Source: Acidobacteriaceae bacterium KBS 83 (GTDB lineage Bacteria > Acidobacteriota > Terriglobia > Terriglobales > Acidobacteriaceae). From it: a DNA stretch of 64,000 bases. How positions within the stretch are numbered: the stretch's first letter is position 1; each line of letters opens with the position of its first letter. The notes beneath the pieces were generated by a model. The model saw nothing but the letters and a program-made list of their open reading frames with translations. It made no database searches and was not told where the DNA came from. Where the stretch lies: positions 666,836 through 730,835 of the forward strand of contig KB906735.1 of assembly GCA_000381585.1 (NCBI GenBank). Reading direction: 5' to 3'. A program made the translations under genes and the position numbers. Positions 39,641-56,368 of this stretch are shown one piece after another.

Positions 39641-39995
39641 CGCCTTCCACTCGGGCACAGACGTAGTCGCGCAGAGTCTTACGCAATGCATAGCCGGTTG
39701 CGCTGAGGCTCCACCGGAGGATTGATAAAGCTACCCATCGACCGATGCAGGACAGCGCATGCACCTAGCCGCTACTGTTCATCCGTGCAGCCCGCCGAGT
39801 GATTTCTTCCCCTGAACGTGGGTGGACCCTGCTACTGGTATTCGCCGGCAGAATTATCTAAATTCCACGGAGCCTTTGAGATGCGGCACGTTCTCTGGCG
39901 CACATGTCACGGTGATCCACCTCAACAAGGTGTCACGCGAACCGCAGGCGTCACTCTGTTTGCAGTGCCAAGTCTTCTGGGAGACTCGAAACAAT
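39641..39995. other. Intergenic region upstream of the TonB receptor
   Basis: No gene recognised; presumably the receptor's leader and promoter. Confidence 0.35.
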
Positions 39996-42900
39996 ATGAA
40001 CTTCGTTCGCAATGTGCTGGCATTTGTAATGCTTGCTTGCCTCAGTTTGTCTGCTCAGCAGATCACCGGAAACGTTCGCGGAACAGTTACAGACCCAAGC
40101 GGCGCTGTCATTCAGGGCTCCGCGGTTACAGCGCGGCAGGCGGAAACGGGCCTGTCGCGCAGCACGACCACCGATCGCGACGGTAACTACGTTCTTCTGG
40201 AACTCCCGGTCGGACATTACCGCCTGCAGGCCGCAGCAAAAGGTTTCCAGGAATATGTGCAGGATGGCATCACGCTGAACGTGAACGAGACGGCTTCGGT
40301 CTCCCCACATCTCGCGGTCGGATCGGAGAAGGAGCAAGTGCTGGTGAGCTCCGATGCCGAGCTGATTGAGCCAACCGTCACCAGCATGGGCAAGGTAGTG
40401 CAACAGCGCGAGTTGGAGGATCTGCCGCTGAACGGACGCAACTTCTCGCAACTTGGCTTGTTACAGCCTGGCGTCGTTCCCTTGACGCCTGGGATAGCCG
40501 AAGCGGGCGGATCGCTGCGCAACGGACAGGCATATGCAGTCAATGGCCAGCGACCTGAATCAAACAACTTCCTCATCGACGGCGCGAACAACTTCAACGG
40601 CGTCGACGGCGGATTCGTCCTCAAGCCGCCGGTGGATGCGATCAGCGAGTTCCGCATCATCACGCACAGCGCGAATGCGGAGTTCGGAAGTGCGTTAGGA
40701 TCGACGACAAATATCATCACGCGGTCGGGCACGAACCACGTTCACGGAACGTTGTGGGAGTTCCTGCGCAACGACGCAGTCGATGCCAACAATTACTTCT
40801 ACTCCGGGCCGTCGAAGGAGCCGCTGAAGCAAAACCAGTTTGGCGCCACTATCGGCGGCCCGATCAAAAAAGATAAAACCTTCATTTTCGGTTTCTATGA
40901 AGGCTTCCGCAATCGCCAGGGCGAGACTGGACTTACCCCAGTGCCGTCGCTGAAGCAGCGTACCGGAGACTTCTCCGAACTCTGCCCGGAGGGCTTCACG
41001 GACGGCTTCTGCAACAACCCTGCGAACCAGCTTTTCAACGTCTTCGCCAATGCACCGTACCCGAATAACCAGGTGCCGCAGGCTCAGTTCAACTCGGTTT
41101 CGAAAAATTTGCTGAGCTTCTTTCCGCTTCCAAACGCGGGCACCAATCTGTTCTCCACGACCCAGATTTTGACCAATAATACCGATCAGTTCGGCATCAA
41201 GGTGGATCACTACCTCAATCCGCATGACATGCTGAACTTCAATTACATGTTCAACCAGCTCTCCCAGGTCGATCCGCTATCGCCGGGGGGGGCCAGCGTG
41301 CCGGGCTTCCCCATAGGCGAAGACCAGCGCGCGCAGATCTTTGTCGCTCAAGAGACGCACACCTTTTCGCCGACCCTCATCGGTGTGGCGCGATTCTCGT
41401 TTCTCCGCAACAAGTTCCTCTACGGCGAGCACGAGAACCATCAGCCGCCCTCAAGCCTTGGATTCCAATACGAACCGAGTCTCGATGTCGCCACTGGACC
41501 GCCGTTCATCCAAGTGAATGGCTATTCCACGGTTGGTGATCCGATCACCGGCCCACGCAACACCTACGAAAACGTCTTCGATTACTCCGGATCGCTGAGC
41601 TGGGTGCGGGGCAGGCACACGCTGAAATTCGGCGGCGGATATCAGCATCAGCAGATCAACGTGCTGCAAGGGATTGCGACCAACGGCTTCTTCGTATTCG
41701 TGCCATTCCCGGTAACGGACGCGTTCGCCAGCTTCCTCACCGGGCAGCCGATCGTCTTCCTGCAAGGTATCGGCGATTTCTCGCGTGGCATTCGCGGCAA
41801 CAATGCGAATTTGTACGTGCAGGATACGTATAAGGTCACGCCGGGACTCACAATCAATGCCGGACTGCGTTACGACTTGCCCATACCGTACACCGAAATT
41901 CATAACCGGGTATCGTTGTTTGACCCGGGGAAGAAGTCCCAGGTCCTTCCGGACGCGCCGGCGGGACTGTTGTATCCGGGCGATCCCGGTGTGCCCGCAG
42001 GCCTGATCCCCACCGATAAGAAGGCATTTGCGCCGCGTCTTGGCATCGCGTGGGACCCGATCGGTAATGGCAAGTCACTGATAACTGCGGCATACGGTAT
42101 CTTCTATGAGCCTTATTACACCGGACAGGGTGGTCCCTTGCAGGCGCCGATCAGTGCACCTCCGTACCTGGGAACCCCGCAGGTGAGCCTGCCGAACTTC
42201 GCGGATCCGTTCAATGGCAATCCACCGGCCGTAGGGACATTCTCCAAGCCACTCACGAATCTGACTCTGTCGCCGACGTTGACGCTCCCTTACACGCAGG
42301 ATTGGGACTTGAGCCTGCAGCAGTCGTTAGGATCCGATTGGCTGTTCGAGATCGGATACGTCGGCACCAAGGGCACGCACCTGCCGCGCTTTATTGAAGC
42401 GAACCCAGCTGTATTCGTTCCCGGAACCGTGAACGGCCAGCCGATTTCGAATTCCAGCAACGCCGATCAACGGCGGCTCTATTCCGGCTGCACGCTCGCC
42501 GATCCGCCGAGCAGTTGCCAGTTTTCATCGACCGGCGAGATCGCGGGTATCGCCAACTCGTCGTACAACGCGTTGGAAACGTCCATGCGCAAACGGTTCA
42601 GCCACGGTCTGTCATTCCTCGTGTCGTACACGTGGTCGAAGGCGATCGACGATGTGTCGTCGTTCAACATAACCGGATCGGCGGCGAAGCCAGTCGCAGG
42701 CGAAAACGATCTCGCCCAAGACCCGTTCAATCTCGCAGCAGAGCGGGGGCTCTCGCTGTTCGACGCGCGCAACCGATTCGTTGGGAGCTATGAATGGGCG
42801 CTTCCGTTCTGGAACCATGCGCAGAACTGGTACCAATGGGGGCTCGGCGGGTGGCAGTTGAATGGCATCGCCACGCTGATGAGCGGCACGCCGTTCACCG

Positions 42901-43313
42901 TCTTCGACTCCAACGACGTTGCGGCGCAAGGCACTGCGCCGGAGATCACCGGATTCTCCGCGCAGCGACCCGATCTCGTCGGCAATCCCAATAGCGGGCC
43001 GCGTGCGGTCAGCGCCTGGCTCAACAGTAGCGCTTTCCACCGACTCGATCCCACAGCCAACGCGGGGCAGTTTGGCACGGAACGCCGCAACGTGAATACC
43101 GGCCCGGCTTATGCGGACTTGGACTTCGGTGCCCTTAAGAACTTCAAAGTGACAGAATCGACGCAGTTCCAGTTCCGCGCGGAGCTCTTTAACATCCTGA
43201 ACCGCGCAAACTTCCGCTTGCCCGACAGCGACATTAGTTCGCCGACATTCAACCATATCCTTTCGGCGGAGGCTCCGCGCCAGGTACAGTTTGCGTTGAA
43301 GTTCATGTATTAG
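39996..43313 (+). CDS. Oar-like TonB-dependent outer-membrane receptor, intact
   Basis: 1105 residues from the ATG at 39996, chosen because the frame's upstream 58 codons lack a signal peptide while MNFVRNVLAFVMLACLSLSAQQ is one. Residues about 25-110 are a carboxypeptidase-regulatory-like domain (GTVTDPSGAVIQG, GNYVLLELPVGHY). A plug follows with LPLNGRNFSQL and FLIDGANNFNG. About 290-1105 is a large beta-barrel with LRYDLPIPYTE, FRAELFNILNRANF and the final strand RQVQFALKFMY. This architecture is a hallmark of Acidobacteriota and is thought to import large or unusual substrates. No substrate-linked neighbour other than the MFS gene. Confidence 0.93.
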   Translation: MNFVRNVLAFVMLACLSLSAQQITGNVRGTVTDPSGAVIQGSAVTARQAETGLSRSTTTDRDGNYVLLELPVGHYRLQAAAKGFQEYVQDGITLNVNETASVSPHLAVGSEKEQVLVSSDAELIEPTVTSMGKVVQQRELEDLPLNGRNFSQLGLLQPGVVPLTPGIAEAGGSLRNGQAYAVNGQRPESNNFLIDGANNFNGVDGGFVLKPPVDAISEFRIITHSANAEFGSALGSTTNIITRSGTNHVHGTLWEFLRNDAVDANNYFYSGPSKEPLKQNQFGATIGGPIKKDKTFIFGFYEGFRNRQGETGLTPVPSLKQRTGDFSELCPEGFTDGFCNNPANQLFNVFANAPYPNNQVPQAQFNSVSKNLLSFFPLPNAGTNLFSTTQILTNNTDQFGIKVDHYLNPHDMLNFNYMFNQLSQVDPLSPGGASVPGFPIGEDQRAQIFVAQETHTFSPTLIGVARFSFLRNKFLYGEHENHQPPSSLGFQYEPSLDVATGPPFIQVNGYSTVGDPITGPRNTYENVFDYSGSLSWVRGRHTLKFGGGYQHQQINVLQGIATNGFFVFVPFPVTDAFASFLTGQPIVFLQGIGDFSRGIRGNNANLYVQDTYKVTPGLTINAGLRYDLPIPYTEIHNRVSLFDPGKKSQVLPDAPAGLLYPGDPGVPAGLIPTDKKAFAPRLGIAWDPIGNGKSLITAAYGIFYEPYYTGQGGPLQAPISAPPYLGTPQVSLPNFADPFNGNPPAVGTFSKPLTNLTLSPTLTLPYTQDWDLSLQQSLGSDWLFEIGYVGTKGTHLPRFIEANPAVFVPGTVNGQPISNSSNADQRRLYSGCTLADPPSSCQFSSTGEIAGIANSSYNALETSMRKRFSHGLSFLVSYTWSKAIDDVSSFNITGSAAKPVAGENDLAQDPFNLAAERGLSLFDARNRFVGSYEWALPFWNHAQNWYQWGLGGWQLNGIATLMSGTPFTVFDSNDVAAQGTAPEITGFSAQRPDLVGNPNSGPRAVSAWLNSSAFHRLDPTANAGQFGTERRNVNTGPAYADLDFGALKNFKVTESTQFQFRAELFNILNRANFRLPDSDISSPTFNHILSAEAPRQVQFALKFMY

Positions 43314-45124: not shown

Positions 45125-45219
45125 TGGCGGAAGTGCGTGTGAGTCGAACACACCGTCACCCGTGAAGAGCGACCGCCGGTTTTGAAGACCGGGAGGATCA
45201 CCGGAGCCTAAGCACTTCC
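45125..45219 (-). tRNA. selC: tRNA-Sec, anticodon TCA
   Basis: 95 bases with encoded CCA, the same length as E. coli tRNA-Sec. On the minus strand it begins GGAAGTGC and ends GCACTTCC-G-CCA, an 8-bp acceptor stem unique to selenocysteine tRNA. The D-arm contains CTCCGGTGA as in E. coli. The anticodon arm is CCGGT-CTTCAAA-ACCGG with TCA at the centre. A long variable arm follows, then the T-arm GTGTG-TTCGACT-CACAC. It is transcribed away from selD, 72 bases from its start. SelA, SelB and SelD are all encoded next to it. Confidence 0.95.
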
Positions 45220-45291: not shown

Positions 45292-46350
45292 ATGAATGCA
45301 CCACTCATCAGGTTAACGCAACAGGTAAAGGCGGGAGGATGTGCCAGCAAGCTGGCGCCCGGTTCACTCGCGGCTGTGCTTTCTCGGTTGCCTTCGCAGA
45401 GCGATCCCAACCTATTGGTCGGCTTCGACACTTCGGATGATGCGGGCGTTTACAGACTCGACGCCGATTCTGCACTCGTGCAGACTGTCGATTTCTTCAC
45501 ACCGCTCGTAGACGATCCGTTCACATTTGGCCGGATCGCGGCCACCAATGCACTCAGTGATGTGTACGCAATGGGTGGCCGCCCGCTCACCGCGCTCTCG
45601 CTGGTTTGCTTCCCCCAGGACGGCGATCTGGACATCCTCGAGCAGATAATGCGAGGCGGCCTCTCGAAGATGTCTGAGGCTGGTTGCGTCGTCGTCGGAG
45701 GACACAGCGTCCGTGACGGGGAGATCAAGTTTGGTTATGCTGTCACCGGCTTGATTCATCCAGATCGTGTGCTCACCAATGCCGGCGCGGCAGTAGGCGA
45801 CGTACTCGTGCTGACGAAAGCGCTTGGGACTGGCGTGATCACGACGGCTCTGAAACAAGGCAAAGCCGATTCCGATTGGGTAGAAGTAGCAGTGCGGTCG
45901 ATGACGACTCTGAATCGAGAAGCATCGGAGATCGCAGCACATACGGTCGGAGTACATGCCATGACCGACATCACTGGTTTCGGCTTGATGGGGCACAGCC
46001 GCGAGCTGGCCCTGGCCAGCGGAGTCTCGCTCGAGATCGAAGTGGAGCGCATTCCGCGGATCGATGGCGCGCTGGACGCGATTCGGATGGGTGCCATCCC
46101 CGCTGGCTTACTGGCGAATCGCGATTTTGCGGAGTGCGTTACCTGCGATGCGGCGGGTGCGTCTATCTCGGATGCTATGCGTGCTCTGCTGTACGATCCC
46201 CAGACAGCTGGAGGGCTCCTGATCTCCGTCGCCGCCGTGGCTGCCGATGAACTACTAGCGTCCCTCAAGGCCGGCGGGATCTATGCCTGTAGGGTCGGCT
46301 GCGTCGTTGGCCGACGGGCTGCGGGCGAACACCTGATTCTTTTACGCTAG
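45292..46350 (+). CDS. selD: Selenide, water dikinase
   Basis: 352 residues. It makes monoselenophosphate, the selenium donor, from selenide and ATP. The N-terminal catalytic pair is Cys17 and Lys20 in GGCASK; the Sec seen at this place in some SelD proteins is Cys here. Further landmarks are VGFDTSDDAGVYRL, TPLVDDPFTFGRIAATNALSDVYAMGG, VVGGHSV and the C-terminal DPQTAGGLL. First gene of the selD-selA-selB run; selA follows after 17 bases. Complete and of normal length. Confidence 0.96.
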   Translation: MNAPLIRLTQQVKAGGCASKLAPGSLAAVLSRLPSQSDPNLLVGFDTSDDAGVYRLDADSALVQTVDFFTPLVDDPFTFGRIAATNALSDVYAMGGRPLTALSLVCFPQDGDLDILEQIMRGGLSKMSEAGCVVVGGHSVRDGEIKFGYAVTGLIHPDRVLTNAGAAVGDVLVLTKALGTGVITTALKQGKADSDWVEVAVRSMTTLNREASEIAAHTVGVHAMTDITGFGLMGHSRELALASGVSLEIEVERIPRIDGALDAIRMGAIPAGLLANRDFAECVTCDAAGASISDAMRALLYDPQTAGGLLISVAAVAADELLASLKAGGIYACRVGCVVGRRAAGEHLILLR

Positions 46351-46367: not shown

Positions 46368-47846
46368 ATGCTGAAGGATGAGCCCAACGAGAACGGTACC
46401 GGACAGGAAAATCTGTACAGACATGTCCCGTCCCTGAACAATTTGCTGCTCGGTCCTAACTTCCAAGGGTTGCTTGGTACTCACGAGCGCAGTGTTGTGG
46501 TGCAGGCGACACGGGACGAGCTGATTGCTGTGAAGCAGCAGATCACGTCCGGTCAGTTGTCACAGCACAACCTGGCGACATACCTGGACGTCTTGCCGGA
46601 TCGAGTGTCGGAACGCCTTCAGAGCCGACTTCGCTACTCACTGCGGCGCGTCATCAACGCCACAGGTGTACTCCTGCACACCAACCTCGGACGAGCCCCA
46701 CTAAGCACATCGGCCATCGACCATATCGCCGACGTCGCAGCCGGATACTCCAACCTGGAACTGGATCTCGAGACTGGCGAGCGTAGCCACCGAGACGTTC
46801 ATGCGGAGTCCCTCGTGCTCGACCTTCTGAAGATGAGGACAGGCTTGGCTGGCGAAGAGGAACAGCCAAGAGCAGTAGTGGTGGTAAATAACTGTGCTGC
46901 TGCAACCTTCCTGGCTCTCGATGCGATTGCCAGGGACCGCGCGACGATCGTCTCTCGTGGGGAACTCGTCGAGATCGGGGGCGGCTTTCGCATTCCAGAG
47001 ATCCTGGCTAAATCAGGAGCGCAGTTGCGTGAGGTAGGTACCACAAATCGGACGCGAACTGCTGACTACGAGTCGGCGATCTCTCCAGCAACCGGTTTGA
47101 TCCTCCGTGTTCACCAGTCCAACTTCAGCATGGAGGGCTTCACCGAACGACCTTTGCTTGCCGACCTGGTATCCCTTGGCAGGCGTGCGTGCGTCCCGGT
47201 TTTCGAGGACCAGGGCACTGGACTTCTGACATCGCTGGCACCGCAGAGCTTTCCGGCGGAAGAAACATTGCTCGAAAGCTATCGGCAGGGAGTGGATCTC
47301 ATTGCGGCAAGTGGCGATAAGCTGCTCGGCGGCCCGCAATGCGGTCTCCTCATCGGCAGAACAGATCTGATCGAGCGCATTCGCGCGAACCCGCTGTTGC
47401 GAGCCTTCCGCGTGGACAAACTTACTTATGCCGCACTGGAGGCCACGCTGATCGGATATCTCTCGAACGAGGAGCGGTCGATCCCTATCCTTCGGATGTT
47501 GAACATCCCCGCCGGTGAGATTCTGGAGCGAAGTGAACGGCTTGCTGACCGCGTCCGTTCTCCCGAGCTTTCTGCAGAAGTGGTCTCGGCGGTCAGCGTT
47601 ATCGGCGGCGGCACGACGCCGCGGGCGAAGCTCCAAAGCTATGCAGTGGCGTTGCGACATGGCACATCTCATTGCCAAGATCTGTTGCGCAGTCTGCGCC
47701 ACCTTCAGGTGCCAGTGGTCGGCCGCATCTGCGACGATCGAGTCTGGCTTGATTTGCGCACCGTGGAGCCAGAACTCGACGAAACACTCGCTGCTCTCCT
47801 CGCGGAACTGGGAGGGGGCAGCGCTAGCTCGAAGCAGCAGGCCTAA
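46368..47846 (+). CDS. selA: L-seryl-tRNA(Sec) selenium transferase
   Basis: 492 residues, a little longer than E. coli SelA (463). It converts seryl-tRNA-Sec to selenocysteyl-tRNA using selenophosphate and PLP, as a decamer. Visible motifs: NATGVLLHTNLGRAPLS, YSNLELDLETGERSHR, VVNNCAAATFL, EVGTTNRTR and SGDKLLGGPQ with the PLP lysine Lys318. The stop overlaps the selB start (TAATG), so translation is coupled. Confidence 0.96.
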   Translation: MLKDEPNENGTGQENLYRHVPSLNNLLLGPNFQGLLGTHERSVVVQATRDELIAVKQQITSGQLSQHNLATYLDVLPDRVSERLQSRLRYSLRRVINATGVLLHTNLGRAPLSTSAIDHIADVAAGYSNLELDLETGERSHRDVHAESLVLDLLKMRTGLAGEEEQPRAVVVVNNCAAATFLALDAIARDRATIVSRGELVEIGGGFRIPEILAKSGAQLREVGTTNRTRTADYESAISPATGLILRVHQSNFSMEGFTERPLLADLVSLGRRACVPVFEDQGTGLLTSLAPQSFPAEETLLESYRQGVDLIAASGDKLLGGPQCGLLIGRTDLIERIRANPLLRAFRVDKLTYAALEATLIGYLSNEERSIPILRMLNIPAGEILERSERLADRVRSPELSAEVVSAVSVIGGGTTPRAKLQSYAVALRHGTSHCQDLLRSLRHLQVPVVGRICDDRVWLDLRTVEPELDETLAALLAELGGGSASSKQQA

Positions 47847-49765
47847 TGGACTCCTCGGCAGAAAGGCCTCACCGCAACTCCATCGTGGTCGGCACTGCCG
47901 GTCATATCGACCACGGAAAGACTGCACTCGTCCGCGCTCTTACCGGAGTGGATACCGATCGCCTGCCGGAGGAGAAGCGAAGAGGCATAACCATCGACCT
48001 TGGCTTCGCTTCGCTCCAAGCGAAGTTGACGGACGGCCAGCCGATGACCATCAGCTTCGTCGATGTGCCAGGGCATGCGCTCTTTATTCGCAACATGTTG
48101 GCGGGTACTGGGTGCATCGATGCCGTGATGCTCGTCATTGCGGCGGACGAGGGTGTGAAGCCGCAAACCCAAGAACATCTCGACATCTGTCGCCTGCTCG
48201 GCGTACAGCGCGGTCTCACTGTGGTCACCAAGGCAGATGCCGTCAGCCCTGATCGATTGGAACAGGTCTGTCATGAAATCGAGTCGTTCCTAGGCGACAG
48301 CTTCCTATCCCAAGCAAAATTGGTGGTGGTGAGTGCATATGCCAGCACCGGCATCGACGAATTGCGCGATGCGCTTCTGGATCTTGCGAACGCCGCTCCT
48401 GCTCCCGCGAGGGGAAAGCTACTAAGATTCCCTCCCGACCGGGCCTTTGTCGTCAAAGGATCGGGTACGGTTGTGACGGGCACGCTCATCGCCGGTGAGA
48501 TCACGGCAGGGCAGACGCTTTCGCTCGAACCAGGAGACAGGGCAGTACGAGTGCGGGAAATACAGACCCACAACCGGCGCCTCCAGCAGGGGGACGCTGG
48601 GTCGCGCGTCGCACTGAACCTTGCAGGCATCGATGCGACGGAGGTGTATCGCGGCCAGACCCTGGTCCTGCCTGGCTCTATTAGTGCCACCGAAACCATC
48701 GATGCGGAGATCACAATCCTCCCAGGCTGTAGCGGACTGAAGCATCGTACAAGCGTTCACGTACATGCGTTCACCGCAGACATACTTGGGACGATCTTCC
48801 TGTACGGCTACGACGCAGCGGAGCCAGGCCCGGCTCGCATCGTGCGCATCCGTCTCCAGAAGCCAATGGTATTGGTATCGGACGACCGTTTCGTGCTTCG
48901 CCAACCCTCGCCCGCGATGACGATTGGCGGCGGTCGTGTCCTGGATGCGCATCCCTTGCCTAAACTGCGCAGGGCAGAGGCGCTCCAATGGTTGATCAAA
49001 TTCAAGGATGCGCCTCTGGAGGAAAAACTCTACGCGCGTATCGCACGTCGCGACGTCGATGGACTGACACTCCAACAACTGAGTCGGGAAACTGGATTGA
49101 CCTTCGAAGCGCTGGAAACGCCCCTTCATCCTCTCATCCAGTCACGGCGTGTACTTCGCCTGTCCGCAGGAGTGCTGTTGGTATCCACCGCGCAGCAGGC
49201 TGCACGCGAGACTGTAGATGCTCTCCTTCAGGCTAAAGGAAAAGATCTGGCAACCAAGGGATGGAAACGCTCAGAGCTAAGAAGCCGGACCCGTCTAAGC
49301 CCAGAAGTCTTCGATTCGGTCATGAAAGAGCTCTCTGGCGAGAATCGGGTCAAGATCAGCGGTGAACTCGTCTTCTCGCAGAACCCCCACTCGTCACCTG
49401 AGAATGCAGATCGAAAGCGGCTCTCTACGATCGACTCAATCTATGAAGTGGCTGGGCTCGCCGCCCCCTTGTCGACCGAGGTGGCAGACCGTCTATCCCT
49501 CACGCACGCCGAAATGCGGCAACTGGTGACGATTCTGCAGCGAGAGAGAGTTCTGATCAGGATGGGCAGTGACACGCTTTACGTGCATCGCAGCGCGATT
49601 GAGCGGCTTCGGATTGAGTTGCAAGAGATGCGCGGGCAATCCCTGGATGTGGCCCGATTCAAGGAACTCACCGGCCTATCCAGAAAATATGCCATTCCGC
49701 TACTCGAATACTTTGAACGGGAGCGAGTTCTCCGCAGGCTTGGGGACCAGCGCCTGATTCTCTGA
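47846..49765 (+). CDS. selB: Selenocysteine-specific elongation factor
   Basis: 639 residues, similar to E. coli SelB (614). GTPase domain with AGHIDHGKTALV, VDVPGHALF and TKAD. Domains II and III follow (FVVKGSGTVVTGTL). The C-terminal half has several winged helices that bind the SECIS hairpin. It delivers Sec-tRNA to UGA codons marked by a SECIS element. The two next genes carry such UGAs. A short gap of about 96 bases separates it from the first of them, so one transcript is likely. Confidence 0.95.
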   Translation: MDSSAERPHRNSIVVGTAGHIDHGKTALVRALTGVDTDRLPEEKRRGITIDLGFASLQAKLTDGQPMTISFVDVPGHALFIRNMLAGTGCIDAVMLVIAADEGVKPQTQEHLDICRLLGVQRGLTVVTKADAVSPDRLEQVCHEIESFLGDSFLSQAKLVVVSAYASTGIDELRDALLDLANAAPAPARGKLLRFPPDRAFVVKGSGTVVTGTLIAGEITAGQTLSLEPGDRAVRVREIQTHNRRLQQGDAGSRVALNLAGIDATEVYRGQTLVLPGSISATETIDAEITILPGCSGLKHRTSVHVHAFTADILGTIFLYGYDAAEPGPARIVRIRLQKPMVLVSDDRFVLRQPSPAMTIGGGRVLDAHPLPKLRRAEALQWLIKFKDAPLEEKLYARIARRDVDGLTLQQLSRETGLTFEALETPLHPLIQSRRVLRLSAGVLLVSTAQQAARETVDALLQAKGKDLATKGWKRSELRSRTRLSPEVFDSVMKELSGENRVKISGELVFSQNPHSSPENADRKRLSTIDSIYEVAGLAAPLSTEVADRLSLTHAEMRQLVTILQRERVLIRMGSDTLYVHRSAIERLRIELQEMRGQSLDVARFKELTGLSRKYAIPLLEYFERERVLRRLGDQRLIL

Positions 49766-49861: not shown

Positions 49862-50443
49862 ATGTCTGAGCCCACGAAAAAGATCGACCTGATAGAAGAC
49901 GCCGATGCTTCCGGTGAGGTGGCAAAGGTCTATGACGAGTGGCGGGCAAAGTCAGGCCGCGAGAAGGTGCCGGGCATCCTGAAGTGCTTCAGCCATCGGC
50001 CCGATTTTCTGCACGAGGTCATACGTTTTAGTGACACTGTCCACTTTTCGGAAGGGCACCTGGATCGGCGAACGAAGGAAGCAATCGCAAGCTGGGTATC
50101 GTGGCTGAATCGCTGTCCGTATTGACTGGACTCGCATGCCTACTTCCTGCGTGTTCAGGGAGCCGACGAGAAAACAGTTCAGGCAATCGCTGAGGGAAAT
50201 CTCGATGAAGCCGGTCTCAGCGCTGCGGGGCGTGCGTTACTGGAGTATGTAAAGAAAGTGACCGAGGCGGCTTACCGCACCACTCCAGAGGACGTAGAGG
50301 GATTGCGAACGCATGGGTGGACTGAGCCGCAGATTGCGGAGGCCGTATACATCACGGCAATGTTCGCATTCTTTAATCGCGTCGCGGACGCATTCGGCAT
50401 CGCGCCTCAGGGCTATCTAGAATTAAATGCGGTGACCAAATGA
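49862..50443 (+). CDS. AhpD/carboxymuconolactone-decarboxylase-like selenoprotein (CPYU), TGA read as Sec
   Basis: 193 residues if TGA 50123-50125 is read as selenocysteine. The same frame is open on both sides, and both halves together form one AhpD-like protein. Before it comes RTKEAIASWVSWLNRCPY; after it LDSHAYFLRVQG, VTEAAYRTTPEDVE and FNRVADAFGIAP. The family's redox pair CxxC with a His four residues later is here Cys85-Pro-Tyr-Sec88...His92. A SECIS-like hairpin starts at the base after the TGA, and selA, selB, selC and selD are adjacent. The start at 49862 is favoured by the family N-terminus; an in-frame Met at 49802 exists. Expected role: thiol-peroxide reduction or peroxiredoxin recycling. 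Confidence 0.88.
50126..50158 (+). promoter_or_regulatory. SECIS-like hairpin of the AhpD-like selenoprotein
   Basis: CTGGAC-T-CGC pairs with GCG-T-GTTCAG: nine pairs (one G-T) around one T-T mismatch, plus a possible A-T closing pair. The 11-base loop begins T-G, which satisfies the rule of a G in the first two loop bases. The loop starts about 12 bases after the TGA, slightly closer than usual. Confidence 0.6.
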
Positions 50444-50453
50444 ACGCAGAGAG

Positions 50454-51185
50454 ATGCCGATGAAGGCACGTATCAAGCGTTGGTGGAGCAGAGGGCTCCT
50501 CGTGCTTGGCTTGCTATGGCTTTGTTTTGTCGGGTACATCGGCTGGGCCATGCGACAGCCGCCCGAGGTGTTTGGGCATGTGATGTCTCGGATGCCGATG
50601 CCTGCTTACTTTCTCTTTCCGTTCGAAACGATGTGGACACGCGCGCGGAAAGGAACGCTGCGCGTGGGGGATACTGCACCGGGCCTGACTGTGCAGACGC
50701 TCGATACTCAGCAGACGCAGGTCCTGTCCGCGCTTTGGAGGGACAGGCCGGTCGTCCTCGTCTTTGGCAGCTACACTTGACCACCCTTCCGGCGGGAGGT
50801 TCCCGCCCTGAACAAGCTTTCGGAGCAGTACAAGGGAAAGGTCGATTTCTACGCGGTCTACATTCTTGAGGCCCATCCGACGGATGTCTGGCAGATGCAG
50901 AGCAACGTCCGGGATAAGGTGCTATTTCGCAGCCCGCGCGACATGGACGAGCGCGTGTCTGTAGCGGGCGCCTGTGTACGACGGCTGAAAATCCAGTTCC
51001 CCGCGCTTGTAGATGGCCTAGATGATCGAGTAGAGGCGGCGTACACTGGCTGGCCTGATCGCATGTATCTGATCGACCGCGGCGGGCGCATTACGTTCAA
51101 GAGCAAAGCTGGCCCGTTTGGCTTCCATCCCGAAGAACTCGCAGCGGCTCTGCAGAAGCTTACTTCTACAACCTCACAGCACTAA
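50454..51185 (+). CDS. Iodothyronine-deiodinase-like selenoprotein, membrane anchored, TGA read as Sec
   Basis: 243 residues if TGA 50778-50780 is Sec109. An N-terminal transmembrane helix lies at about 11-32, then a thioredoxin-like domain. The active site reads FGSYT-Sec-PPF, against FGSCT-Sec-PPF/PSF in vertebrate deiodinases. After the TGA the same frame gives PALNKL, VDFYAVYILEAHPTDVW, the deiodinase signature with EAH, and ends with YLIDRGGRITFKSKAGP. Without recoding, both halves would be meaningless fragments. A perfect SECIS-type hairpin follows the TGA. Ten bases separate it from the AhpD-like gene. Likely a periplasmic-facing or cytoplasmic-facing redox or reductive dehalogenation enzyme; substrate unknown. 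A second start Met is six bases downstream. Confidence 0.88.
50788..50812 (+). promoter_or_regulatory. SECIS hairpin of the deiodinase-like selenoprotein
   Basis: GGCGGG (50791-50796) and CCCGCC (50802-50807) form a perfect 6-bp stem with the pentaloop AGGTT, close to the E. coli fdhF loop AGGTCT. An outer TTC/GAA helix extends it across a small internal loop. The loop begins 17 bases after the TGA, inside the 16-37 base window for bacterial SECIS. Confidence 0.88.
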
Positions 51186-51818: not shown

Positions 51819-52833
51819 ATGAAACCAAATGTTCTGAATCCGTCTGACCTCCAGCCAATAGCTCAAGACAAAGAAGCCTTCTCTGAGATCCTGCGGTTGA
51901 TTGTTGCCCACGCCAAATAGCCTTCCATGCCGTTAACACCGAGTTGATTAACCTCTATTGGGAAGTTGGCTCAATCATCAGCCGCGGAATGGGGTGACGG
52001 TGTGGTGGATCGACTGGCAGAGTTCATAGCCAGAACACAGCCCGGCATGCACGGCTTTACGTGTCCTAACTTGTTTAGAATTAGGCAATTCTACGAGGCA
52101 TACCAGGATCACGAAAAGTCTCACCGCTGGTGAGACAACTGCCTTGGACTCACAACCTAATCATTTTGGGACAGAGCAAGCTACCGGAGGAGCGCGAGTT
52201 TTATCTGCGTTTGGCGGTTCAAGAAAAGTGGAGCAAGCGGGAGTTGGAACGTCAGGTGAAGGGCGGCGCTATTTGAGCGGGCGATACTGAGCCCAGCAAA
52301 AGTCTCACCAGCGGTGAGACAAATGCAGCCCGAGGCTTTCAATGTCTTCAAAGACGCTTCCATGTTGGAATTCCTGGACCTGCCGGAAGGACACGCGGAG
52401 GCTGATCTACGCCGCGCCCTGTTGCTCAAGCTCAGGGACTTTCTGATCGAATTGGGGCGTGACTTCTGCTTCGTCCGCTCCGAGTATCCCTTGCAGGTCG
52501 GTGGCCGGGACTTCGCACTCGACTTGCTGTTCTTCCACCGCGGATTAAATAGCCTGGTGGCGTTGGAACTCAAGGTTCGGCCGCTTCGAGCCGGAGTACC
52601 TCGGGAAACTCGCGTTCTATTTAGAAGCCCTGGATCGTGACGTGCGGAAACCTCATGAACGTCCGTCGATTGGCGTATTGCTCTGTGCTAGCAAAGACGA
52701 CGAGGTCGTGGAATATTCGCTGAGCCGTACCTTGTCTCCAGCACTCATCGCTGAGTACCAGACCCAGTTGCCCGATAAAAAATTACTTCAGGCCAAGCTC
52801 CATGAGTTCTACCTTCAGAACGCACCCGAATAA
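51819..52833 (+). pseudogene. DUF1016/YhcG-family PDDEXK nuclease, frameshifted
   Basis: Fragments in changing frames match one protein in order. They are MKPNVLNPSDLQPIA, VNTELINLYWEVGSIISR, WGDGVVDRLAEFIARTQPG, LPWTHNLIILGQSKLPEERE, QPEAFNVFKDASMLEFLDLP and RRALLLKLRDFLIELGRDF, then the nuclease core FALDLLFFHRGLNSLVALELK, then FEPEYLGKLAFYLEALDRDV and KKLLQAKLHEF at the end. At least five frame changes. Members often act in phage defence or are carried on mobile elements. Confidence 0.82.
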
Positions 52834-55731: not shown

Positions 55732-56139
55732 TTAGCCAATAAGGAACTCTCGATCCACAGGGATTTGCATCGAATTTGCGAGGCTATTCGTTTCCTCAGC
55801 CATGCCGACGACCGCCAAAAACTCAGCATACTGCTCGTCGGATAGGCCCTTGGCCCGCGCCGCGGCCGTGTGCGAGTGGACGCAGTAGCTGCAGCTGTTC
55901 ACTGTTGATACCGCGATATAGACCAGCTCCTTCGTGAGCGGATCGAGCACTCCGGATTCCATCATCACCTGTTTCACACTCGACCACGTCCGTTCGAGAA
56001 GCCGGGGCTGATTCGCGAGAGCACGCCAGAAATTGTTCACGAAATCTGACTTGCGAGTTGCGCGTATATCTTCGAACACGGTCTTTACAGCCGGGACAAT
56101 TGCAGCTTCCTCATCAGTCCAGAGTTTGATGGTCGCCAC
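55732..56139 (-). CDS. AhpD/carboxymuconolactone-decarboxylase-like protein with CxxC
   Basis: I chose the GTG at 56139 because GGAGG lies nine bases upstream; a TTG at 56160 would include that site in the coding part. 135 residues. Motif SCSYCVHSH gives the redox pair CxxC with His four residues after, and an upstream Glu in KELVYIAVS fits the proton-relay position of AhpD. Single-domain thiol peroxidase or recycling enzyme. It is the Cys counterpart of the selenoprotein at 49862. Confidence 0.88.
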   Translation of the reverse strand: MATIKLWTDEEAAIVPAVKTVFEDIRATRKSDFVNNFWRALANQPRLLERTWSSVKQVMMESGVLDPLTKELVYIAVSTVNSCSYCVHSHTAAARAKGLSDEQYAEFLAVVGMAEETNSLANSMQIPVDREFLIG

Positions 56140-56368
56140 TCGGTAGTACCTCCACTGCAATCATAAGGACCCTTCTTCCGTGCTTACCAGCTTTACGAAA
56201 TCCCGCCAAAGATCAAAATCAGATCGAGTCCCTGGCTCCGCGCACTGTCTGAAAAATCCGCTTCGAGAAATACAATGAGTGGGGATCGGCAAGCCGCCCC
56301 ACCCCGCAATATCTGACTTCTCAATTCCATATTTTCGCAAGACCAGCCCAAAGGAGCGCCAGGGCCGA

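Follow-up and report, generated by a model that had tools for sequence, protein, structure and literature searches.

A deiodinase-like selenoprotein gene beside the selenocysteine genes of an acidobacterium, with a conserved in-frame TGA, SECIS hairpin, active-site pocket and second cysteine

The window, that is, the whole stretch of 64 kb that was analysed, lies on contig C3 of a 6.25-Mb host genome (labelled G000). Between positions 45125 and 51185 it carries a selenocysteine (Sec) cassette in which a tRNA-Sec gene on the minus strand is followed, on the plus strand, by selD, selA, selB and two TGA-interrupted genes. The second of these encodes the deiodinase-like protein considered here, whose closest named relatives belong to the Acidobacteriaceae, e.g. 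Edaphobacter and Occallatibacter. The features are as follows.

45125-45219, minus strand: tRNA-Sec, anticodon TCA
45292-46350, plus strand: selD, selenophosphate synthetase, without an inner TGA (profile match)
46368-47846, plus strand: selA, Sec synthase (profile match)
47846-49765, plus strand: selB, Sec-specific elongation factor (profile match; sole SelB wing match in the genome)
49862-50443, plus strand: CMD/AhpD-like selenoprotein gene, motif CPY-U (profile match; TGA conservation)
50123-50125, plus strand: in-frame TGA (Sec) of the CMD/AhpD-like gene (TGA in 17/17 matches)
50143-50162, plus strand: candidate SECIS hairpin of the CMD/AhpD-like gene, CTTCCTG-CGTGTT-CAGGGAG (same place in 17/17 matches)
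50454-51185, plus strand: deiodinase-like selenoprotein gene, 243 aa, Sec at residue 109 (profile, homologues, model)
50496-50552, plus strand: codons of the predicted transmembrane segment, residues 15-33 (hydrophobicity; model)
50661-51161, plus strand: deiodinase/peroxiredoxin-like catalytic domain, about residues 70-236 (profile and fold matches)
50778-50780, plus strand: in-frame TGA read as Sec (U109), motif FGSYT-U-PPF (TGA in 53/54 readable loci, own included)
50791-50807, plus strand: SECIS hairpin GGCGGG-AGGTT-CCCGCC (stem conservation, synonymous constraint)
50859-50876, plus strand: YILEAH codons (Tyr136, Glu139 and His141, equivalent to Dio2 Tyr157, Glu160 and His162; invariant in 119/119 distinct bacterial domains)
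50973-50975, plus strand: Cys174 codon, proposed resolving cysteine, not in Dio2/Dio3 (49/49 near-full rows; 89/119 in the wider set)

The genes selA, selB and selD and the tRNA-Sec gene, which are expected together with a bacterial selenoprotein, all occur in the host genome. An earlier note on this DNA had placed the deiodinase-like gene two genes after selB, and this agrees with the map, in which selB ends at 49765 and a single gene (49862-50443) lies in between; that this intervening gene encodes a selenoprotein too went unmentioned there. Among the four families checked in the host genome (PF00837, PF00384, PF02627 and PF08534), an inner TGA was found only in the CMD/AhpD-like and deiodinase-like genes. 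Selenoprotein formate dehydrogenase was considered as the main Sec client and rejected, since none of the six PF00384 matches in the genome has an inner TGA; the Sec of formate dehydrogenase presumably sits within that domain.

The joined translation was searched against Pfam T4_deiodinase (PF00837), as the earlier note had proposed, and matches at 118.3 bits against a cut-off of 27 (E 4e-34). In a profile search of the PDB, Dio3 (2.8e-42) and Dio2 (1.1e-38) stand far ahead of the next best match (1.9e-9). An AlphaFold2 model from 68 sequences has a pLDDT of 96.3 and a pTM of 0.91, and when this predicted model is searched with Foldseek, mouse Dio2 and Dio3 rank first with target-normalised TM-scores of 0.83 and 0.82. 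The two mouse enzymes are the closest solved structures by sequence and by fold alike, and the deiodinase-like identity first read from the DNA letters is supported. The AhpC-TSA and Redoxin profiles of Pfam also match the protein. The NCBIfam model NF038285 (deiodinase family protein) scores 201 bits, under its cut-off of 250: residues 70-234 match model positions 177-341, whereas the 176 further N-terminal positions of the model are unmatched in the window protein. By the Pfam profile, by its FGSxTUPPF and YxxEAH motifs and by its predicted fold the protein belongs to the deiodinase superfamily (PF00837). The Foldseek matches of the model also include Bcp1, and a viral fold match was obtained with BFVD A0A3G4ZQR0 (Terrestrivirus giant virus, annotated iodothyronine deiodinase) at E 1.2e-3.

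The frame 50454-51185 is open straight through the TGA at 50778-50780, where a standard ORF scan splits the gene into two separate ORFs. Counted from ATG 50454 the TGA is residue 109, in the deiodinase active-site context FGSYT-U-PPF, and the YxxEAH signature follows in the same frame as YILEAH, both as the earlier note had described them. The true start may be ATG 50460, because the alignments of several close homologues begin only at residue 3. Of the 56 fetched loci and the window's own, three (L051, L052 and L056) are truncated and yield no codon for this site; TGA stands in 53 of the 54 that are readable and CGT in one (L053), whose frame is broken. Homologues with a true stop here, which the earlier note had named among the findings that would refute its reading, were not encountered among these loci, the frame being kept on both sides of the TGA. 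Cys forms of the protein exist, e.g. L125 and L073. Taken across homologues, this is strong comparative evidence that the protein uses Sec at its active site; in principle, UGA 50778 could also act as a partial stop.

Bacterial SECIS elements are hairpins lying just after the UGA, with a G within the first two bases of the loop. The hairpin pointed out earlier, with a GGCGGG/CCCGCC stem and an AGGTT loop ten bases after the TGA, is indeed there, its arms occupying 50791-50796 and 50802-50807, and with one further A-U pair the loop would shrink to GGU. Over 50 loci and codons 70-235, the hairpin codons 113-118 are the most synonymously constrained of 156 six-codon windows (mean identical-codon fraction 0.85, against 0.46 for the gene); codons 114 and 115 do not vary among the 50 loci, and at codon 116 GTT occurs 47 times and GCT 3 times. 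A stem of at least six pairs, with a G in loop bases 1-2 and the loop starting 18-25 bases past the first base of the TGA, is present in 96 of 114 TGA homologues from two phyla (91 of 109 after removal of five duplicates). By comparison, 50 synonymous shuffles of the 114 gave such stems in 11 homologues on average and 19 at most, and 4.5% of the in-frame windows elsewhere in these genes satisfy this definition; a laxer test (at least five pairs anywhere) separates less well, with 111/114 in the real sequences and, in shuffles, 67 on average and 80 at most. The arms vary among the 96, with 33 distinct inner arms and at least four pair types at each of the six pair positions; the loop has GGT in 58 and GGC in 12, a G being always present by construction of the test. 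Covariation counts for the near clade (62 rows, 33 of them distinct) are higher than in any of 500 shuffles, but an alignment slid by +1 scores higher on two measures, and the outer two pairs fail in 6 of the 33 rows each. Because of this slide result the SECIS is argued from the synonymous constraint, the count of stems against shuffles and the diversity of the arms; judged from these comparisons, the hairpin is a real SECIS element. Rfam gave no match at the hairpin even at a relaxed threshold, and the 64-nt stretch after the TGA, folded as a single sequence, has an ordinary energy (z -0.61); for both Sec genes, thermodynamic z-scores of individual hairpins proved uninformative.

Conservation of the active-site pocket was followed by mapping the Dio2 residues named in PMC11592359, which that paper gives as proposed for the proton relay and the substrate, onto 124 bacterial domains, 119 of them distinct. 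Among the distinct domains the position of Ser127 is kept in 116, that of Thr129 in 115, those of Tyr157, Glu160 and His162 in all 119, that of Trp167 in 102 and that of Arg226 in 106. The relay His182 position is occupied by Pro161 in the window protein, and by Pro in 105 and His in 8 of the 119; at the Phe224 position the window protein has Pro201, and Pro is found there in 114. The window protein also has a Lys-Ala pair at 218-219, and both a Pro at the Phe224 place and a Lys-Ala pair are described for Dio1 in PMC11592359.

The two helper cysteines of the animal enzymes are missing, the place of the proximal one being Tyr107 and the column of the distal one Phe182. Present instead is Cys174, found in all 49 near-full rows (8 of 57 were dropped as broken, N-bearing or truncated) and lacking in 30 of the 119 distinct domains, 2 of these being gaps in truncated rows. 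The earlier note was silent on the missing helper cysteines and relay histidine, and on the invariance of Cys174 in near relatives. Among the rows without Cys174, four have Cys107, which is the proximal Cys position of Dio1/Dio3, ten have Cys157 and three Cys175, and the others have no second Cys or have it elsewhere. The subfamilies with a second Cys at 107 or 157 are those of L058-L063, L067, L070, L095, L096, L107 and L122-L126, within which L125 (a Cys form) and L062 have neither cysteine; another homologue, L085, reads U-P-Y-C, a UxxC form. By analogy it looks as though the groups differ in where their resolving cysteine sits, which is also the case in peroxiredoxins. In atypical 2-Cys peroxiredoxins of the PrxQ/Tpx kind the resolving Cys lies in helix alpha3, and the peroxiredoxin motif is P-x3-T-x2-C. 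The host genome encodes a PrxQ-like protein of its own, to which we ascribe, as an assumption, an export signal and a resolving role of its Cys; an hhalign alignment puts Cys174 one residue off this presumed resolving Cys, at a probability of 88.6 and with the active sites misaligned. The motif itself is incomplete in the window protein, which has Leu102 instead of Pro and Ser106 (at -3) instead of Thr.

A transmembrane helix ahead of the domain, as had been suggested earlier, is borne out by the hydrophobic residues 15-33 and by a helix at residues 3-33 in the AlphaFold2 model. Five K/R residues lie among positions 4-13, ahead of the hydrophobic stretch, which suggests that the catalytic domain is outside the cytoplasm. 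A hydrophobic stretch, defined as a mean Kyte-Doolittle value above 1.6 over 19 residues, precedes the motif by at most 110 residues in 96 of 120 distinct homologues (99/121 in a separate count), their starts not being fixed, so that some stretches may precede the true start. Several planctomycete members have N-termini resembling export signals, and because of these and of the hydrophobic N-terminal stretches of the homologues an envelope location is likely for the deiodinase-like protein. Ahead of the domain of some planctomycete members further segments can be discerned by eye, PDZ-like in L090 and EF-hand-like in L093, L106, L117 and L118.

The neighbouring CMD/AhpD-like gene, which a standard ORF scan ends at 50125, matches TIGR01926 at 98 bits (cut-off 82), and no signal peptide is visible in its product by eye. 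Its TGA and hairpin fall at the same place in 17/17 matches, a count that includes the gene itself and one genome twice and, for the hairpin, comes without a shuffle control; the single-sequence fold of the hairpin stretch has a z-score of only -0.08. Descriptions of AhpD-like/CMD selenoproteins (CxxU) apply to this upstream neighbour, whose family differs from that of the deiodinase-like protein. Among the 56 fetched loci, many of them truncated, 15 have the deiodinase-like gene directly after a CMD selenoprotein gene. Clustering of the neighbours in the 56 loci and the window gave ten clusters of at least five loci. Three correspond to selD, selA and selB; fragments of the deiodinase-like and CMD genes, or their shadows on the opposite strand, account for four more; one holds proteins of ~1,170 aa (putative outer-membrane receptors), and the remaining two comprise five loci each. 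On this clustering, conserved functional neighbours beyond the Sec cassette were rejected, and a promoter and terminator scan gave nothing beyond shuffle level. Elsewhere in the window, 39822-43313 encodes a large TonB-receptor-like outer-membrane beta-barrel protein with a CarboxypepD_reg domain, and 55732-56160 (minus strand) holds a further CMD-family gene without TGA. At 52314-52640 there is a partial-domain match to YhcG_C (PDDEXK nuclease), which may be a decayed gene because related pieces, seen by eye, lie nearby in other frames.

PF00837 matches at E<=0.001 occur in 38 of 396 genomes of the phylum (30 over the cut-off), in 126 of 398 genomes of the family (117 over the cut-off) and in 102 of 294 genomes of the phylum of homologue L055, titled Planctomycetota (99 over the cut-off). 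Among the matches listed at or above 85 bits, all those of the host family have an inner TGA except that of genome G739, and so do those of the Planctomycetota except four (G487 twice, G616 and G657); for the host phylum, among the matches listed over the cut-off, an inner TGA is found at 26 of 37 places. The gene accompanies tRNA-Sec: with a call threshold of at least 60 bits, set by the author (58.6 in G147 thus counting as absent), tRNA-Sec is found in 24 of 25 genomes with a TGA-type gene against 7 of 25 without a family match (Fisher p 8e-7, uncorrected for shared ancestry), both sets being hand-picked, the former at >=95% completeness and the latter with nine of its 25 from one genus (g4). 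It is also found in 6 of 8 genomes with a Cys-type match. The one TGA-type genome without tRNA-Sec at that threshold is G778 (98% complete), and G739, whose Cys form L125 lies inside an otherwise TGA-type UPPF/Cys157 subfamily, has a best tRNA-Sec score of only 47 bits. Named carriers whose records are not labelled as MAGs are Edaphobacter lichenicola, Occallatibacter savannae and Acidicapsa dinghuensis, the last two with the full selD-selA-selB-CMD-deiodinase cassette. A phage or plasmid origin was considered and set aside, no relative being found in viral_contigs (single query) or in the plasmid collection. In a tree of 81 rows, midpoint-rooted, with only two animal rows and unsettled bootstrap values, Dio2 and Dio3 are nested within the larger main set (70 rows, 98/94), weakly beside three planctomycete rows (83/81).

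The earlier note's statement that deiodinase-like Sec proteins had appeared in bacterial surveys was accurate: Sec and Cys forms were reported from marine metagenomes by Zhang, Fomenko and Gladyshev in 2005 (PMC1088965), who suggested a redox role. The window protein is a further member of this bacterial family and not a new kind. As far as the accessible text of these sources goes, the GOS survey of 2008 (PMC2398784) tabulates the family without a motif, two reviews of 2022 and 2026 (PMC9312934 and PMC13188914) give it as UxxC, and deep-Sep (PMC12013277) counts three known selenoproteins in Occallatibacter riparius, among which this gene may already be included. With the marine proteins the window protein shares the Pfam family, Sec members and a bacterial SECIS, but it comes from soil-type Acidobacteriota; and in contrast to the UxxC of the reviews, compared here by description and not by sequence, it reads UPPF, like Dio2/Dio3. 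The fold (by model), the N-terminal membrane helix, Sec, UPPF and the pocket Ser, Thr, Tyr, Glu, His and Trp are common to it and vertebrate Dio1-3, whereas its SECIS is of the bacterial type and inside the coding region, Pro stands at the relay His182, Cys174 is found in place of the proximal and distal Cys, and thyroid hormones are not expected in bacteria. PrxQ/BCP-type peroxiredoxins resemble it in fold family and in a second Cys one residue away in the profile alignment, and differ from it in that it has the deiodinase insertion with YxxEAH, a Sec nucleophile and an incomplete motif. In literature with little coverage of subscription journals, no paper on deiodinase selenoproteins in Acidobacteria was found, and a search for deiodinase in Planctomycetes gave only a paper on Archaeplastida selenoproteins; the literature searched names no tested substrate of a bacterial family member.

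On this evidence the gene probably encodes a true PF00837 selenoprotein, helix-anchored and working through a Sec109-Cys174 cycle. UGA 50778 would be decoded as Sec by the products of the adjacent selA, selB, selD and tRNA-Sec genes, and the N-terminal helix would tether the peroxiredoxin-like domain to the membrane, most likely facing the periplasm. The selenolate of Sec109, set up by Ser106, Thr108, Tyr136, Glu139 and His141, might attack an electrophile, either a peroxide oxygen or an aromatic halogen, whereupon Cys174 would displace the product to form a Sec109-Cys174 selenenylsulfide, which an envelope thiol system could then reduce. The family, the predicted fold, the Sec codon, the SECIS hairpin and the conservation of the pocket and of Cys174 come directly from the computations, and the location, cycle, substrate class and reductant are deduced from them. 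Against this account as a whole stand the replacement of His182 by Pro161, the missing helper cysteines, the incomplete occurrence of Cys174 across the family, its offset by one residue from the presumed resolving Cys of the PrxQ-like protein in an alignment with misaligned active sites, the lack of a tRNA-Sec of at least 60 bits in G778 and the chance that the UGA acts as a partial stop. It is hardly credible, by comparison, that translation truly ends at TGA 50778 and that what follows is a gene remnant or another gene: the ordinary folding energy of the single sequence and the two ORFs of the standard scan would fit, whereas a TGA with a continuing homologous frame in nearly all readable loci, the constraint on the hairpin and one continuous domain with a mean pLDDT of 96 do not, and as far as sequence can decide, the comparative data rule it out.

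The chemistry is where the readings divide. That the protein serves in the envelope as a selenol peroxidase or thiol oxidoreductase, peroxiredoxin-like in character and merely retaining the deiodinase frame, has in our estimate a little less than an even chance. The peroxiredoxin-like fold, the AhpC-TSA and Redoxin matches and the alignment of Cys174 to within one residue of the presumed resolving Cys of the host's PrxQ-like protein argue for it, as does the AhpD-like neighbour, AhpD proteins being peroxidase reductants. The redox role proposed in 2005 (PMC1088965) points the same way, but the P-x3-T-x2-C motif is only half present, and a plain peroxidase is not obviously in need of the invariant YxxEAH of the deiodinases. 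The AhpD-like protein, moreover, would sit across the membrane from the catalytic domain, and a direct AhpD-to-Prx electron relay, though the pairing of the genes is suggestive, is not the preferred reading because the neighbour shows no export signal by eye. Rather unlikely is a role as a deiodinase-style reductive dehalogenase: within the envelope, Sec would attack the aryl halogen of a natural halophenol or of an iodo- or bromo-aromatic compound while a His/Glu/Tyr relay protonated the ring. The retention of the Dio relay and substrate residues in most of the 119 domains, and the Dio1-like Pro201 and Lys-Ala pair, are consistent with it; the Pro at relay His182 in 105 of them argues against it, no dehalogenation gene was recognised among the neighbours that were profile-scanned, no recurring neighbour outside the Sec cassette points to dehalogenation, and no halogenated substrate of a bacterial member appears in the literature searched. 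The window protein is most likely an exported, membrane-anchored Sec reductase that resolves through a Sec109-Cys174 bond.

It is conceivable, at rather long odds, that exported Sec dehalogenases for natural haloaromatics are widespread in Acidobacteriota and Planctomycetota, free of the corrinoid and of the strict anaerobiosis that mark classical reductive dehalogenases, and that animal deiodinases descended from within this bacterial Sec family, a descent proposed because Dio2 and Dio3 fall among bacterial rows in the limited tree. The function of bacterial deiodinase-like proteins would bear on the origin of the animal thyroid-hormone enzymes, on the reasons for which cells retain Sec synthesis and, possibly, on how halogens cycle naturally in soil.
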